The translations under genes and the position numbers were made by a program. A DNA stretch of 64,000 nt from Gloeocapsopsis crepidinum LEGE 06123 (lineage in GTDB: Bacteria; Cyanobacteriota; Cyanobacteriia; Cyanobacteriales; Chroococcidiopsidaceae): assembly GCF_015207655.1 (NCBI RefSeq), contig NZ_JADEWN010000006.1, forward strand, positions 62,001 through 126,000, read 5' to 3'. Of this stretch, positions 39,484 to 57,041 are shown piece by piece. The notes below the pieces were generated by a model. That model did no database searches. It was not told the DNA's origin and saw nothing but the letters and a program-made list of their open reading frames with translations. Within the stretch, counting starts at the first letter, position 1; each line of letters starts with the position of its first letter.

Positions 39484-39570
39484 GAGGTCAGAGAATTGAA
39501 AAAGCAGAGGAGAATACTCTTTTCTATCTATTTAAAACTCATCACTCAAAACTCAAAACTAATACCTTTT
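39484..39570. repeat. Short tandem repeat region (gaggtcagag ... aactcatcactcaaaactcaaaact)
   Basis: Between convergent xseB and nurA. Confidence 0.55.
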
Positions 39571-40828
39571 AGGCAATACTGCCGCGTTTTCGGGCTTCCT
39601 TGTAGGAAATTCCTACATTGCGTAAACCAGCTTTAATCATTTGTTGTTCGAGCAAGGTAAAGAAACGGGCGCGATCGCCGCCACGAACCACGGCTTGATT
39701 ATGTGCTTCTGCAAGCGCTACCGGATAGCCGTATCCTTTTTGTACCTGAGCCAACATCAAGCTTAGGGATTGATCGAGTAACGTTGTGTTTTCTGCTACC
39801 CAGGCTGGTACTTCTATGCGAGCAATTTCTGTTCCTACATGGACGTAGCAAAAATAAACACTATGGCAGCCATACAGGTCGAGGATGCGGTGCGAACTGC
39901 GCCACAAGGCACTGCGCTGTCCTGGTTTAAGGGTAAACGTCCACAATGCAATATCTCGCAGAGGATCGAGCATCTGACACGGTGCTTTTTCGGCAACAAG
40001 ATTAGGGCAATATGTCACGCAATCAGGATTTTCGTGCGGACACGCTTGTAAGCGTAAAAAGTTAATGGCTTCTCCACTGCGCGAAGCACTGAGGTAGCCC
40101 ATGATCGGAATTCCTGCATCTTTGAGCTGATCCCAAGCATCTAGAATTGGTGGCAAAATGCGATCGCGTGCTTCTAAAGGTAATTGCTCTAAAAACCAAT
40201 AAATAAGCGAACCATCAACCATTGCTAAGAGTGGCACTGAAGACGATAACTTTCCATTTTTCGCCCCACGCTTTGGACTTCGTCCCGCTGGGCTTCGCCT
40301 CGCTTCGCTAACGCTAACGCTTTTCGCCCCTAAAATTGCTAATTCTGCCAAAACAGTGGCTTCCGAAGCGGTACGGCAATATCCCATCCATTCTTCCGTA
40401 CGAATTCCCCACTGACGTGAAATGTACAAGTCTTCAGGGCGATAAAACACTTCGGGTAAGCTATCTAATAATGGCTGCCGATTTTGCCCATAGTGTAAGA
40501 CAACGCGCCCGATATTAAGAAGGTAGCAGTAAGCAATTTCGTGCTGATTTGGGGCAATTTGCGAGCCATCAGTCGCAATGACGGTGTGGACAGGTGGCGG
40601 AATCGGAATGTCAATCGCAGTATCAAGAGGTTCAACGGGTGTAGCGATGCTGAACAGAATGCGATCGCGCCATTTGTGTTGTTTTTCTACTAATTCAGCT
40701 TGTTGCGTACACGCATCCGCAAATAATTCTTGGGCTAATTCTACGCGCTGGCGACTGGCAGCAGCTTCTAAAGTAAGATGCTGGCTAATGCCTTGCATCG
40801 CTTTTGCTAGTTTTGTTAAATCGAGCAT
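39569..40828 (-). CDS. nurA: NurA-domain nuclease
   Basis: VIATDGSQIAPNQHE (NurA catalytic Asp region), LLAMVDGSLIYWFLE, GYLSASRSGEAINFLRL. Contains a repeat insertion (40258-40330). Confidence 0.85.
   Translation of the reverse strand: MLDLTKLAKAMQGISQHLTLEAAASRQRVELAQELFADACTQQAELVEKQHKWRDRILFSIATPVEPLDTAIDIPIPPPVHTVIATDGSQIAPNQHEIAYCYLLNIGRVVLHYGQNRQPLLDSLPEVFYRPEDLYISRQWGIRTEEWMGYCRTASEATVLAELAILGAKSVSVSEARRSPAGRSPKRGAKNGKLSSSVPLLAMVDGSLIYWFLEQLPLEARDRILPPILDAWDQLKDAGIPIMGYLSASRSGEAINFLRLQACPHENPDCVTYCPNLVAEKAPCQMLDPLRDIALWTFTLKPGQRSALWRSSHRILDLYGCHSVYFCYVHVGTEIARIEVPAWVAENTTLLDQSLSLMLAQVQKGYGYPVALAEAHNQAVVRGGDRARFFTLLEQQMIKAGLRNVGISYKEARKRGSIA
40258..40330 (-). mobile_element. In-frame 63-bp small-repeat insertion in nurA with a 10-bp flanking direct repeat
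   Basis: ttttcgcccc at 40258-40267 and again at 40321-40330. The 53-bp core contains ggcttcgcc and ggacttcgtcc hairpin units. Protein reads GAK-SVSVSEARRSPAGRSPKR-GAK-NGK. Confidence 0.75.
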
Positions 40829-44080: not shown

Positions 44081-45274
44081 TTACACTGACTTTAGCTGAG
44101 AAACTAAAGAATTTGCTAGCTTCACAGCCTGCCAGAGTAATTCCTGGTTATCTTCTAAATGCAGTGGGGACACCACAGTAGCTTGATTTATGGGCATTTG
44201 ATCTAATTGCTCTAAAATAGGTGAAAGTAAAGCGCGAGCGTAACTACCGTAAGCAATACCAGAAATGGAGGGGTGGCTAGTGGCTAGTAGCTGGTGGCTA
44301 GTAGTAAGTGATGAGCTTAATGGTGAGCGATCGTTTTCAATCTTCCCTGACCTCTGAACCCTGAACCGAAGATCTGCGCCAGCGTCCCCTGACCCCTTCA
44401 TCAGTCCGATCGCTCTTAACTTTGCAACGGTATAATCATTAGTCCCTCCAGCTAACTGTACATATCCAGGTAATCCGGCTGCGAGTACCTTTTGACTGAG
44501 CTTCACGGCAGCTAGGGTTGTGCCATCACCAATATCACCGCTCATAGGTCGTCCGTCGGTTTGCCAAATCAACGGGCAGGGTAGTGGTGCAATGATACTA
44601 TGCAGGTTCCACAAGTAATCAATCATGCCGTCTCCGTCAGGACAGCTAATTGCTATTAACTTTAACCTGTTAACCCAAGGTTTGATTCCCTGCCATAATC
44701 TTTTAAATTCAGTTATTCGCCCTACTTGCGTGTGAATTTCAAGTGCATCAACTCCAGTAGATAAAACTAACGGTGCGATCGCCCCTGGTGTAGAAACGTA
44801 CGAGCGAGTGTAAATTAGATCGCTAGGACAAACCGGTATACAGCGACCGCATCCATAACAAAGATCTTGGACTACGCCAGAAAAGAGATCGCGGTCAAAC
44901 ACGATTGCTTGCGCTGGACAAATCTTTTCACACGGTCGAGGACATGCAACTGGACACACCTGGGGGTTAAATTCTGCTTTACGAAAATGCGGGTCTTCTC
45001 CATCATTTAAGCTCACCATTAACCACGGGCTACCCTGGTAAGCAAAACCCTGCTGCTGAGCATCAACAGCCAGCAACTTCGCCACTTCCAACGCTTCTTG
45101 CGCTGCTGCAACTACTGCAGGATCAGCCGCCACGTCAATACAGTCAGCACCAGCTAATGTGTAAGCTAATGTTAAATTTCTAACCGCAGGTAGATGTTGA
45201 AAACTAGCTCCACAGATCAACTTAAACCAGTGACCTTCTTTTAAGGAGCATAAGGGTTTATACAAATCAGTCAC
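44081..45274 (-). CDS. ldpA: LdpA-like iron-sulfur protein (light-dependent period)
   Basis: KPLCSLKEGHWFKLICGASFQHLPAVRNLTLAYTLAGADCIDVAADPAVV; two ferredoxin-like Cys clusters CPRPCEKICPAQAI and CYGCGRCIPVCP. Confidence 0.85.
   Translation of the reverse strand: MTDLYKPLCSLKEGHWFKLICGASFQHLPAVRNLTLAYTLAGADCIDVAADPAVVAAAQEALEVAKLLAVDAQQQGFAYQGSPWLMVSLNDGEDPHFRKAEFNPQVCPVACPRPCEKICPAQAIVFDRDLFSGVVQDLCYGCGRCIPVCPSDLIYTRSYVSTPGAIAPLVLSTGVDALEIHTQVGRITEFKRLWQGIKPWVNRLKLIAISCPDGDGMIDYLWNLHSIIAPLPCPLIWQTDGRPMSGDIGDGTTLAAVKLSQKVLAAGLPGYVQLAGGTNDYTVAKLRAIGLMKGSGDAGADLRFRVQRSGKIENDRSPLSSSLTTSHQLLATSHPSISGIAYGSYARALLSPILEQLDQMPINQATVVSPLHLEDNQELLWQAVKLANSLVSQLKSV
44268..44400 (-). repeat. Repeat-derived in-frame expansion within ldpA
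   Basis: ggctagtggctagtagctggtggctagtagtaagtgatgagc ... cctgacctctgaaccctgaacc; encodes the low-complexity segment ...LRFRVQRSGKIENDRSPLSSSLTTSHQLLATSHPS.... Confidence 0.65.
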
Positions 45275-48522: not shown

Positions 48523-48554
48523 GGGGTGAGGGGCGAGGAGTGAGGGGTGAGAGG
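48523..48554 (+). repeat. G-rich heptanucleotide tandem repeat (ggggtga ggggcga ggagtga ggggtga gagg)
   Basis: Four consecutive 7-nt units read directly. Confidence 0.85.
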
Positions 48555-55199: not shown

Positions 55200-57041
55200 T
55201 TATAGCTCCATTGGTATAGATTCTTCAATTGGAGATGGCGTGTTATCAACTGGTTGTTCTATTGGTGTGTTATCGATAGGCTCAGTTGGCGTGTTGTCAA
55301 CAGGCTCAGTTGGTGTGTTATCGATAGGCTCAGTTGGCGTGTTGTCAACAGGCTCAGTTGGTGTGTTATCGATAGGCTCAGTTGGCGTGTTATCAACTGG
55401 TTGTTCTATTGGTGTGTTATCAACTGGTTGTTCTATCGGAGTGTTATCAACTGGTTGTTCTATCGGAGTGTTATCGATAGGCTCAGTTGAGGTATTGTCA
55501 ACTGGTTGTTCTATCGGGATATTGTCAACTGGTTGTTCTATCGGAGTGTTATCGATAGGCTCAGTTGGCGTGTTATCAACTGGTTGTTCTATTGGTGTGT
55601 TGTCAACAGGCTCAGTTGGTGTGTTATCGATAGGCTCAGTTGGCGTGTTATCAACAGGTTCAGGTGGTGTGTTATCAACTGGTTGTTCTATCGGGGTATT
55701 GTCAACAGGTTCAGGTGGTATGTTATCAACTGGTTGTTCTATCGGGGTGCTGTCAACAGGCTCAGTTGGCGTATTGTCAACTGGTTCAGGTGGTGTGTTA
55801 TCAACTGGTTGTTCTATCGGGGTATTGTCAACAGGCTCAGTTGGCGTGTTATCAACTGGTTCAGGTGGTGTGTTATCAACTGGTTGTTCTATTGGCGTAT
55901 TGTCAACAGGCTCAGTTGGTAGTGTAGTAGGAGTTTCCTCTGTTGTTGGTGGTGTATTATCTCCAGTTGTTGGTGGAGTTGTAGGAGATTGAGTATTGTT
56001 AGATGTTCCACCAGTTGTTGGTGTATCATTTTCTAGCGGTGGTGTTACTGGTTCAGCATCATCAGCAGAAGAATTAGGCGGTGTTGTATTGTCTACTGGA
56101 TCTGTGCCGTCTCTCACTTCGTTATCAGGCGGCTGCTGATTATTGCTACCTCCATTTGTAGTGTTAGTTGTACTGCTTGGTGTGCTTTCAGGTGATGGTG
56201 TTGTAGAAGTATTGTTGCCTTGATTTGATGGAGTTGGTGTTGTAGAAGTATTGTTGCCTTGAGTTTGTTGAGTGTCTCTAGCTGAATTGCTGGGAGACTG
56301 AACAAATGATGGATTTTCAACTACTCCTTCGCCTCTCACTGGCTGCTTTGAAGCGGCAGCTGCCGCAGTTTCTGCTTGAACACTAGACAATGCAGGATCA
56401 GCTGATGGGTTAGTATTTGGTCGATTTAAATTCAGTTGCTGTACTAGATCGCTCGTTTCATAAAAAGTATTCAGATCAAACTCATACAGTTGCTCAATTC
56501 TATCATCAACGACAACTGCCATTTGCCCAGCTTCAAGGACTTCGCTTTGAGAAGCGCTTTCATTAAAAACTTCAATATTACTATCTGTTAAAGCTCCAAC
56601 AATTGTTGTATCAGTATCGGGTATGTAGCGTACAAATAATGCCGAGCCTCTGATTGCTGCAGCTGCATTTGGTGTTTGAATACCTGTTACTCCTCTTCCT
56701 GGAGGAATGAGCAATAGTACTGTTCCGTTTGATAATCTAAATCTACGCGTTTTTGCGATGAAGCGGAATACTGCTTGTTCTCCAACCCTTGCTAAGGAGC
56801 CATCATTGAAACGTAATTCTGCCAACGAAGAACGACCTGTTGACAATGCATCTCCAGGTTGAATTGCATCTGACAATCGCGCTGGGCGTGGTGTGCGATT
56901 TTGTGGTAGCAGGCGCACTAGGTTACGTATGTTTTGCACGACGGCTCGTGTCAAAGTAGTTTCAGCACTAGCCTTCTTAGCTATTGGCAGCGTCATGCTC
57001 CAAAAAACAAAGGTAAGGATAAGGACGAACTTGCGAGACAT
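55200..57041 (-). CDS. FecR domain secreted protein with Pro/Thr/Asn-rich stalk and PVDNTPxE tandem repeats
   Basis: Signal peptide, FecR-like region (GDALSTGRSSLAELRFNDGSLARVGEQAVFRF...VTGIQTPNAAAAIRGSALFVRY), low-complexity linker, then about 27 PVDNTP-type units. Confidence 0.88.
   Translation of the reverse strand: MSRKFVLILTFVFWSMTLPIAKKASAETTLTRAVVQNIRNLVRLLPQNRTPRPARLSDAIQPGDALSTGRSSLAELRFNDGSLARVGEQAVFRFIAKTRRFRLSNGTVLLLIPPGRGVTGIQTPNAAAAIRGSALFVRYIPDTDTTIVGALTDSNIEVFNESASQSEVLEAGQMAVVVDDRIEQLYEFDLNTFYETSDLVQQLNLNRPNTNPSADPALSSVQAETAAAAASKQPVRGEGVVENPSFVQSPSNSARDTQQTQGNNTSTTPTPSNQGNNTSTTPSPESTPSSTTNTTNGGSNNQQPPDNEVRDGTDPVDNTTPPNSSADDAEPVTPPLENDTPTTGGTSNNTQSPTTPPTTGDNTPPTTEETPTTLPTEPVDNTPIEQPVDNTPPEPVDNTPTEPVDNTPIEQPVDNTPPEPVDNTPTEPVDSTPIEQPVDNIPPEPVDNTPIEQPVDNTPPEPVDNTPTEPIDNTPTEPVDNTPIEQPVDNTPTEPIDNTPIEQPVDNIPIEQPVDNTSTEPIDNTPIEQPVDNTPIEQPVDNTPIEQPVDNTPTEPIDNTPTEPVDNTPTEPIDNTPTEPVDNTPTEPIDNTPIEQPVDNTPSPIEESIPMEL
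55234..55925 (-). repeat. Coding tandem array of mixed 24-nt and 27-nt units (P[VI]DNTP[TP]E and P[VI]DNTPIEQ)
   Basis: Units counted from the translation of the FecR ORF. Confidence 0.88.

Follow-up and report, generated by a model that had tools for sequence, protein, structure and literature searches.

An in-frame insert in nurA of Gloeocapsopsis crepidinum as a putative copy of a dispersed repeat family set in heptamer arrays

The window analyzed here is a stretch of 64,000 nucleotides from Gloeocapsopsis crepidinum LEGE 06123 (contig NZ_JADEWN010000006.1, positions 62,001 to 126,000), and its nurA gene lies on the reverse strand at positions 39569-40828 of this stretch. The gene has an intact reading frame of 419 aa with a match to the Pfam family NurA (PF09376, E 1.4e-37), and outside the loop region the protein is 94-96% identical to that of the sister species. 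Direct reading of the sequence bears out the 10-mer TTTTCGCCCC at 40258-40267 and again at 40321-40330, with a spacing of 63. In the protein, residues 167-190 read GAK-SVSVSEARRSPAGRSPKR-GAK; the insert adds 21 amino acids, in frame, to a floppy loop of NurA, and the gene has remained readable, as originally predicted.

In the AlphaFold2 model, the insert residues 167-187 form the end of a long helix (144-174) and the linker to the strand leading to MVDGS. The pLDDT is below 50 over residues 174-196, with a mean of 66.5 for the model, and the PDB set contained no sequence match to a solved NurA structure by which the loop could be placed. The insert most likely serves NurA as a neutral linker.

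The layout on the coding strand is GGGGCGA-AAAGCGT-[42-nt core]-AAAGCGT-GGGGCGA. The first heptamer, GGGGCGA (40324-40330), makes up the first half of the first 10-mer and is common to nurA of both sister species, G001 and G002; heptamer context of this kind is found in all copies described below. It is followed by AAAGCGT (40317-40323), aligned with GGGGCGT in G002, and by the 42-nt core TAGCGTTAGCGAAGCGAGGCGAAGCCCAGCGGGACGAAGTCC (40275-40316), which is absent from both sister nurA genes and ends with a constant 3' mini-hairpin, GGGACGAAGTCC (40275-40286), whose loop is GAA here and GNA in the family. Downstream of the core stand a second AAAGCGT (40268-40274), aligned with GGAGCGT in G002, and the fourth heptamer, GGGGCGA (40261-40267), which is common to G002 and opens the second 10-mer. 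Since the 42-nt core is embedded in a heptamer array, the spacing of 63 is 42 plus three times 7. The 10-mer is thus the heptamer GGGGCGA with a fortuitous AAA, which in the first instance belongs to the next heptamer and in the second to the gene, outside the heptamer. The 10-bp direct repeat consists of two units of the (GRRGYGA)n array and is no insertion scar. It should be noted that the window holds 71 close 10-bp direct-repeat pairs with a spacing of 15-120, against 7.2 +/- 3.3 in a first-order Markov model; chance is expected to yield some pairs of this kind, and a direct repeat alone is therefore weak evidence.

The sister genes agree with this layout. In G001, nurA has a single GGGGCGA and no core, and in G002 it reads GGGGCGA GGGGCGT GGAGCGT GGGGCGA GGGGTGA, with the heptamers in the order of the window and the core absent, so that the window and G002 differ by 42 nt and not by 63. 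NurA of other genera has a short loop or a different sequence at this position, and the insert is therefore confined to this genus. In G001, the 3' end of nurA is immediately adjoined by a heptamer array (C1:3381478-3381502, L158).

The core is repeated elsewhere. With at most one mismatch allowed, the three genomes of this genus contain the 3' hairpin GCGGGACGAAGTCC 13, 26, and 25 times, compared with 0, 1, and 0 occurrences of a reversed-pattern control, and the nurA stretch matches other places in its own genome (G000) down to E 1.9e-21; the core is therefore not a chance sequence. An identical 42-nt core is present in G000 at C96:77846 (L002) and C96:103360 (L003), and the matches at other copies span the first supposed duplication and most of the second. 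All 62 copies that we read in the three species carry GRRGYGA-type heptamers on both sides; this set includes three copies that the pattern missed and that were read by eye, and it excludes L256 and its G000 counterpart L124 as non-elements. The common layout is GRRGYGA heptamers, GRRGYG, TTAGCG, a variable middle, GCGGGACGAAGTCC, and again GRRGYGA heptamers. The core measures 21 nt in its short form and 42 nt in the form seen in the window, and forms that contain TTCACGAAGTGT have cores of about 46-75 nt. Judged by sequence, the insert in nurA belongs, as a single copy, to a dispersed repeat family found throughout the genus, whose members are normally intergenic and whose cores lie in phase between heptamers; this agrees with the proposal that a small dispersed repeat resides in frame in nurA.

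Mini-hairpins with a C-GNA-G loop recur within the cores (GGAC-GAA-GTCC, GGC-GAA-GCC, CAC-GAA-GTG), and 8 of the 19 single substitutions in the constant hairpin, uncorrected for shared descent, fall on the middle loop base, so that GNA is kept. The oligonucleotide d(GCGAAGC) is a very stable mini-hairpin. The hairpin units originally noted, GGC-GAA-GCC and GGAC-GAA-GTCC, are present, but shuffled sequences are predicted to fold with equal energy (z about 0), so that folding energy lends no support to the argument from a strong hairpin. Of 386 genomes sampled throughout the phylum, 15 contain the exact 14-mer, most of them in the same order. In one related genus, ATTGCGA heptamers flank a core of the 21-nt type (L226, L227), which is tandemly repeated in L226, and the arrangement of a core within heptamers is therefore wider than the GRRGYGA heptamer itself. 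In other relatives (L220-L225), the hairpin GCGGGACGAAGTCC occurs in a different context.

The orthologous places of 29 copies were located in the other two species and aligned. L002 lies in the gene of an ABC-transporter ATPase and exceeds its G002 counterpart L160 by exactly 63 bp, in frame and with flanks 99% identical, while L160 keeps one GAGGGGCGAGG; the more distant G001 is also without the core there. The pair L003/L163 has the same four heptamers in both members and differs by exactly 42 without any duplication; the core of L003 is present in the G002 orthologue as well, and G001 is without it. Differences of +42 (L119 vs L190) and +35 (L120 vs L210) were also found, and in L176 vs L177, the target's own heptamers GGAGCTA GGGGCTA stand to the right of the core. 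Recent mobility is observed by comparison of relatives in L002/L160, L119/L190, and L120/L210. The predicted absence of 63 bp with one flank retained is thus seen exactly at the paralogous insertion L002/L160, and nurA of G001 retains one GGGGCGA, but nurA of G002 deviates with its difference of 42. Core forms also differ at one place: L011 and L012 bear different forms among the sister species, and the MenD-like locus L005 has a long core, a short core, and an AATTGGT heptamer array in the three species.

Among the core-less orthologous sites, 29 of 47 contain a GRRGYG[AT] heptamer, compared with 6 of 91 control windows; the other 18 are without a GRRGYGA heptamer, and several of these carry other heptamers. 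The window itself has a heptamer array without a core at 48523-48550 (GGGGTGAGGGGCGAGGAGTGAGGGGTGA) and another heptamer-type repeat, GCTAGTGGCTAGTA, at 44276-44304; arrays of the TAGTGGC type are also common at core-less sister sites.

The first alternative to be weighed is a miniature transposon, moved by a transposase with a preference for GGGGCGA targets and a duplication of about 7-11 bp. If the target is duplicated, the left and right flanks of one copy should match each other better than the flanks of different copies do. With raw letters, own flanks scored 7.41 against 6.90 for different copies (P 0.02, 58 copies). The excess disappeared when purines and pyrimidines were pooled (11.74 vs 11.87, P 0.78), and none was seen outside the nearest heptamers (P 0.98). 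The small raw excess fits the observation that in 41 of 54 copies the left and right heptamers agree in their C/T state, which could also result if the nearest heptamer were copied in a short duplication. Such a transposon would account for the one GAGGGGCGAGG in the empty site L160 and the two in the filled site L002, and the 10-mer pair of the window exceeds in length any match that it has with another copy's flank; owing to the AAA, it is the longest own-flank match of its row. Against it stand, besides these statistics, the exact +42 without duplication at L003/L163 and between the window and G002 nurA. No pair of terminal inverted repeats was seen in the region, the core ends being TTAGCG and GTCC; by this and by the lack of a demonstrated target-site duplication, the family differs from MITEs, which it resembles in consisting of small non-autonomous dispersed elements. 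We consider this alternative unlikely. In its simple form, target-site duplication is rejected on the pairing statistics and the exact +42 filled and empty sites. The original reading of the 10-bp repeat as a duplicated target is not supported, since heptamers are present at all 62 copies and at 29 of 47 core-less sites and own flanks show no excess when pooled; across the copies, the flanks show no duplication beyond the heptamers.

It is also rather improbable that the cores are old at their sites and were precisely lost by recombination between the flanking heptamers, the empty sites of the sisters being losses. The flanking heptamers are direct repeats able to delete a core, the array in G002 nurA could be a deletion product (or the core may have been gained in G000), and the distribution at L003, with the core in the G002 orthologue and not in G001, is in keeping with loss. 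However, deletion between heptamers would leave the occurrence of identical 42-nt cores at unrelated loci unaccounted for, and at L002, even the more distant G001 has no core. Deletion of cores surely also occurs, but it cannot be the whole story.

Movement as a REP/REPIN by a RAYT (Y1 transposase) is very unlikely. REP/REPIN elements, associated with RAYT, are short palindromic dispersed repeats (PMC3116915), as is the present family, and Y1 transposase genes are present in the genome. However, its only two Y1_Tnp genes have the same score and reading frame, indicating an IS200-like element in two copies, and the flanks of both are without a core or heptamer array; no RAYT linked to the copies and no inverted REP doublets were found. 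Local slippage without mobility can be set aside almost completely: heptamers at the nurA site do expand and contract, but the same 42-nt core at unrelated loci refutes such an origin for the core.

We therefore regard as probable, though by no means certain, that this is a dispersed family whose core is copied between heptamer arrays with the heptamers as a guide and without true target-site duplication. A core would be copied out of one heptamer array into another, where the heptamers may either provide short homology, for template switching or for copying that resembles gene conversion, or be recognized as a target motif by some activity; arrays would also lengthen and shorten separately by slippage, and inside genes, only in-frame outcomes would survive. 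We infer that such heptamer-guided copying-in without duplication best fits the presence and absence of cores and their heptamer context, both of which are directly observed. No activity moving the cores was found.

The cyanobacterial small dispersed repeats (SDRs) SDR1-8 of Elhai et al. 2008 are reportedly 21-27 nt long, often placed in tandem heptamers, in part with a common hairpin, and recently mobile. The family studied here is similar by description, being very short and multicopy, with a 21-nt short core, embedded in tandem heptamers and recently mobile, whereas the window's core is 42 nt long, lies inside a protein gene, and has GRRGYGA as host motif. SDR5 inserts exactly between nucleotides 3 and 4 of HIP1 (PMC4390886), which invites comparison with the precise way in which the present cores enter between heptamers. 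The G-rich tandem heptamers scattered over the genome also recall the STRR heptamer GGGGA(C/T)T of Nostoc PCC 7120 (PMC4692102), but the present arrays are built of GRRGYGA units and have a hairpin core within them. Rickettsia palindromic elements are non-coding-type repeats found in frame in unrelated protein genes (PMC10969869), and the in-frame copies described below resemble them in this respect; by description, however, they are about 150 bp long, belong to another phylum, and do not lie in heptamer arrays. SDRs are therefore the closest known kind and the Rickettsia elements the closest for coding insertion, a likeness by description that assigns our family to no named SDR family.

Besides NurA and the ABC-transporter ATPase (L002), the element lies in frame in the MenD-like TPP enzyme (L005, antisense), in a TgpA-like transglutaminase (L128 in G001, with the orthologue L121 in G000), and, antisense, in MutS2 just before LVLLDE (L119). 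With GGGGCGA heptamers, it is free of stops in four of the six frames, and all four are used: one forward frame in NurA, the other in the ABC and TgpA-like proteins, and the two reverse frames in MutS2 and MenD. The element can persist as protein because of these four stop-free frames and because it lands where it is tolerated, as in NurA's disordered linker. At several gene 3' ends (L013, L113, L120, L010, L126), copies replace the C-terminus with GVSAAGRSPE, the stop being supplied by the heptamer GGAGTGA.

The loop of NurA is a recurrent site, and unrelated repeats are found there in other cyanobacteria. In the 80 genes read, most loops have 12-18 residues, and nine, that of the window among them, have at least 25. 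Several of these long loops hold repeats of other kinds: heptamers of the CAATTAC type in UBA11372 and Microseira and of the sequence CCCCART in Trichocoleus, a repeat of GGGGACT/ACAAGGGGG in Anabaena sp. 4-3, and a palindromic one in Phormidium. A concatenated search in which the best candidates were scored gave dozens of own-genome copies for the UBA11372 and Microseira repeats and few further ones for those of Trichocoleus and Phormidium; for the inserts of Desmonostoc and Anabaena sp. 4-3, this search showed no further copies. The loops L024, L025, L057, L075, L077, and L079 hold unrelated repeats or repeat-like inserts, all in frame.

A wider reading, which we put forward tentatively and think somewhat less likely than not to hold in full, is that heptamer arrays act as docking sites by way of which hairpin cores are copied around the genome, with no target-site duplication, and that tolerant protein loops, the NurA linker among them, turn into such sites again and again; an array seeded in frame would then host changing cores and unrelated repeats in each lineage, turning an intergenic repeat into a protein linker. 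For a 42-nt mobile module inside conserved genes, close species thus offer both filled and empty sites, which make the mobility of the smallest cyanobacterial repeats accessible to study with exact junctions. The findings also show intergenic repeats turned into protein in NurA and MutS2 as well as in metabolic or transport genes, and a single NurA loop that takes in unrelated repeats in separate lineages.

Elsewhere in the window, a long imperfect tandem repeat with units of 24-25, 51, 75, and 126 bp occupies positions 55236-55925.
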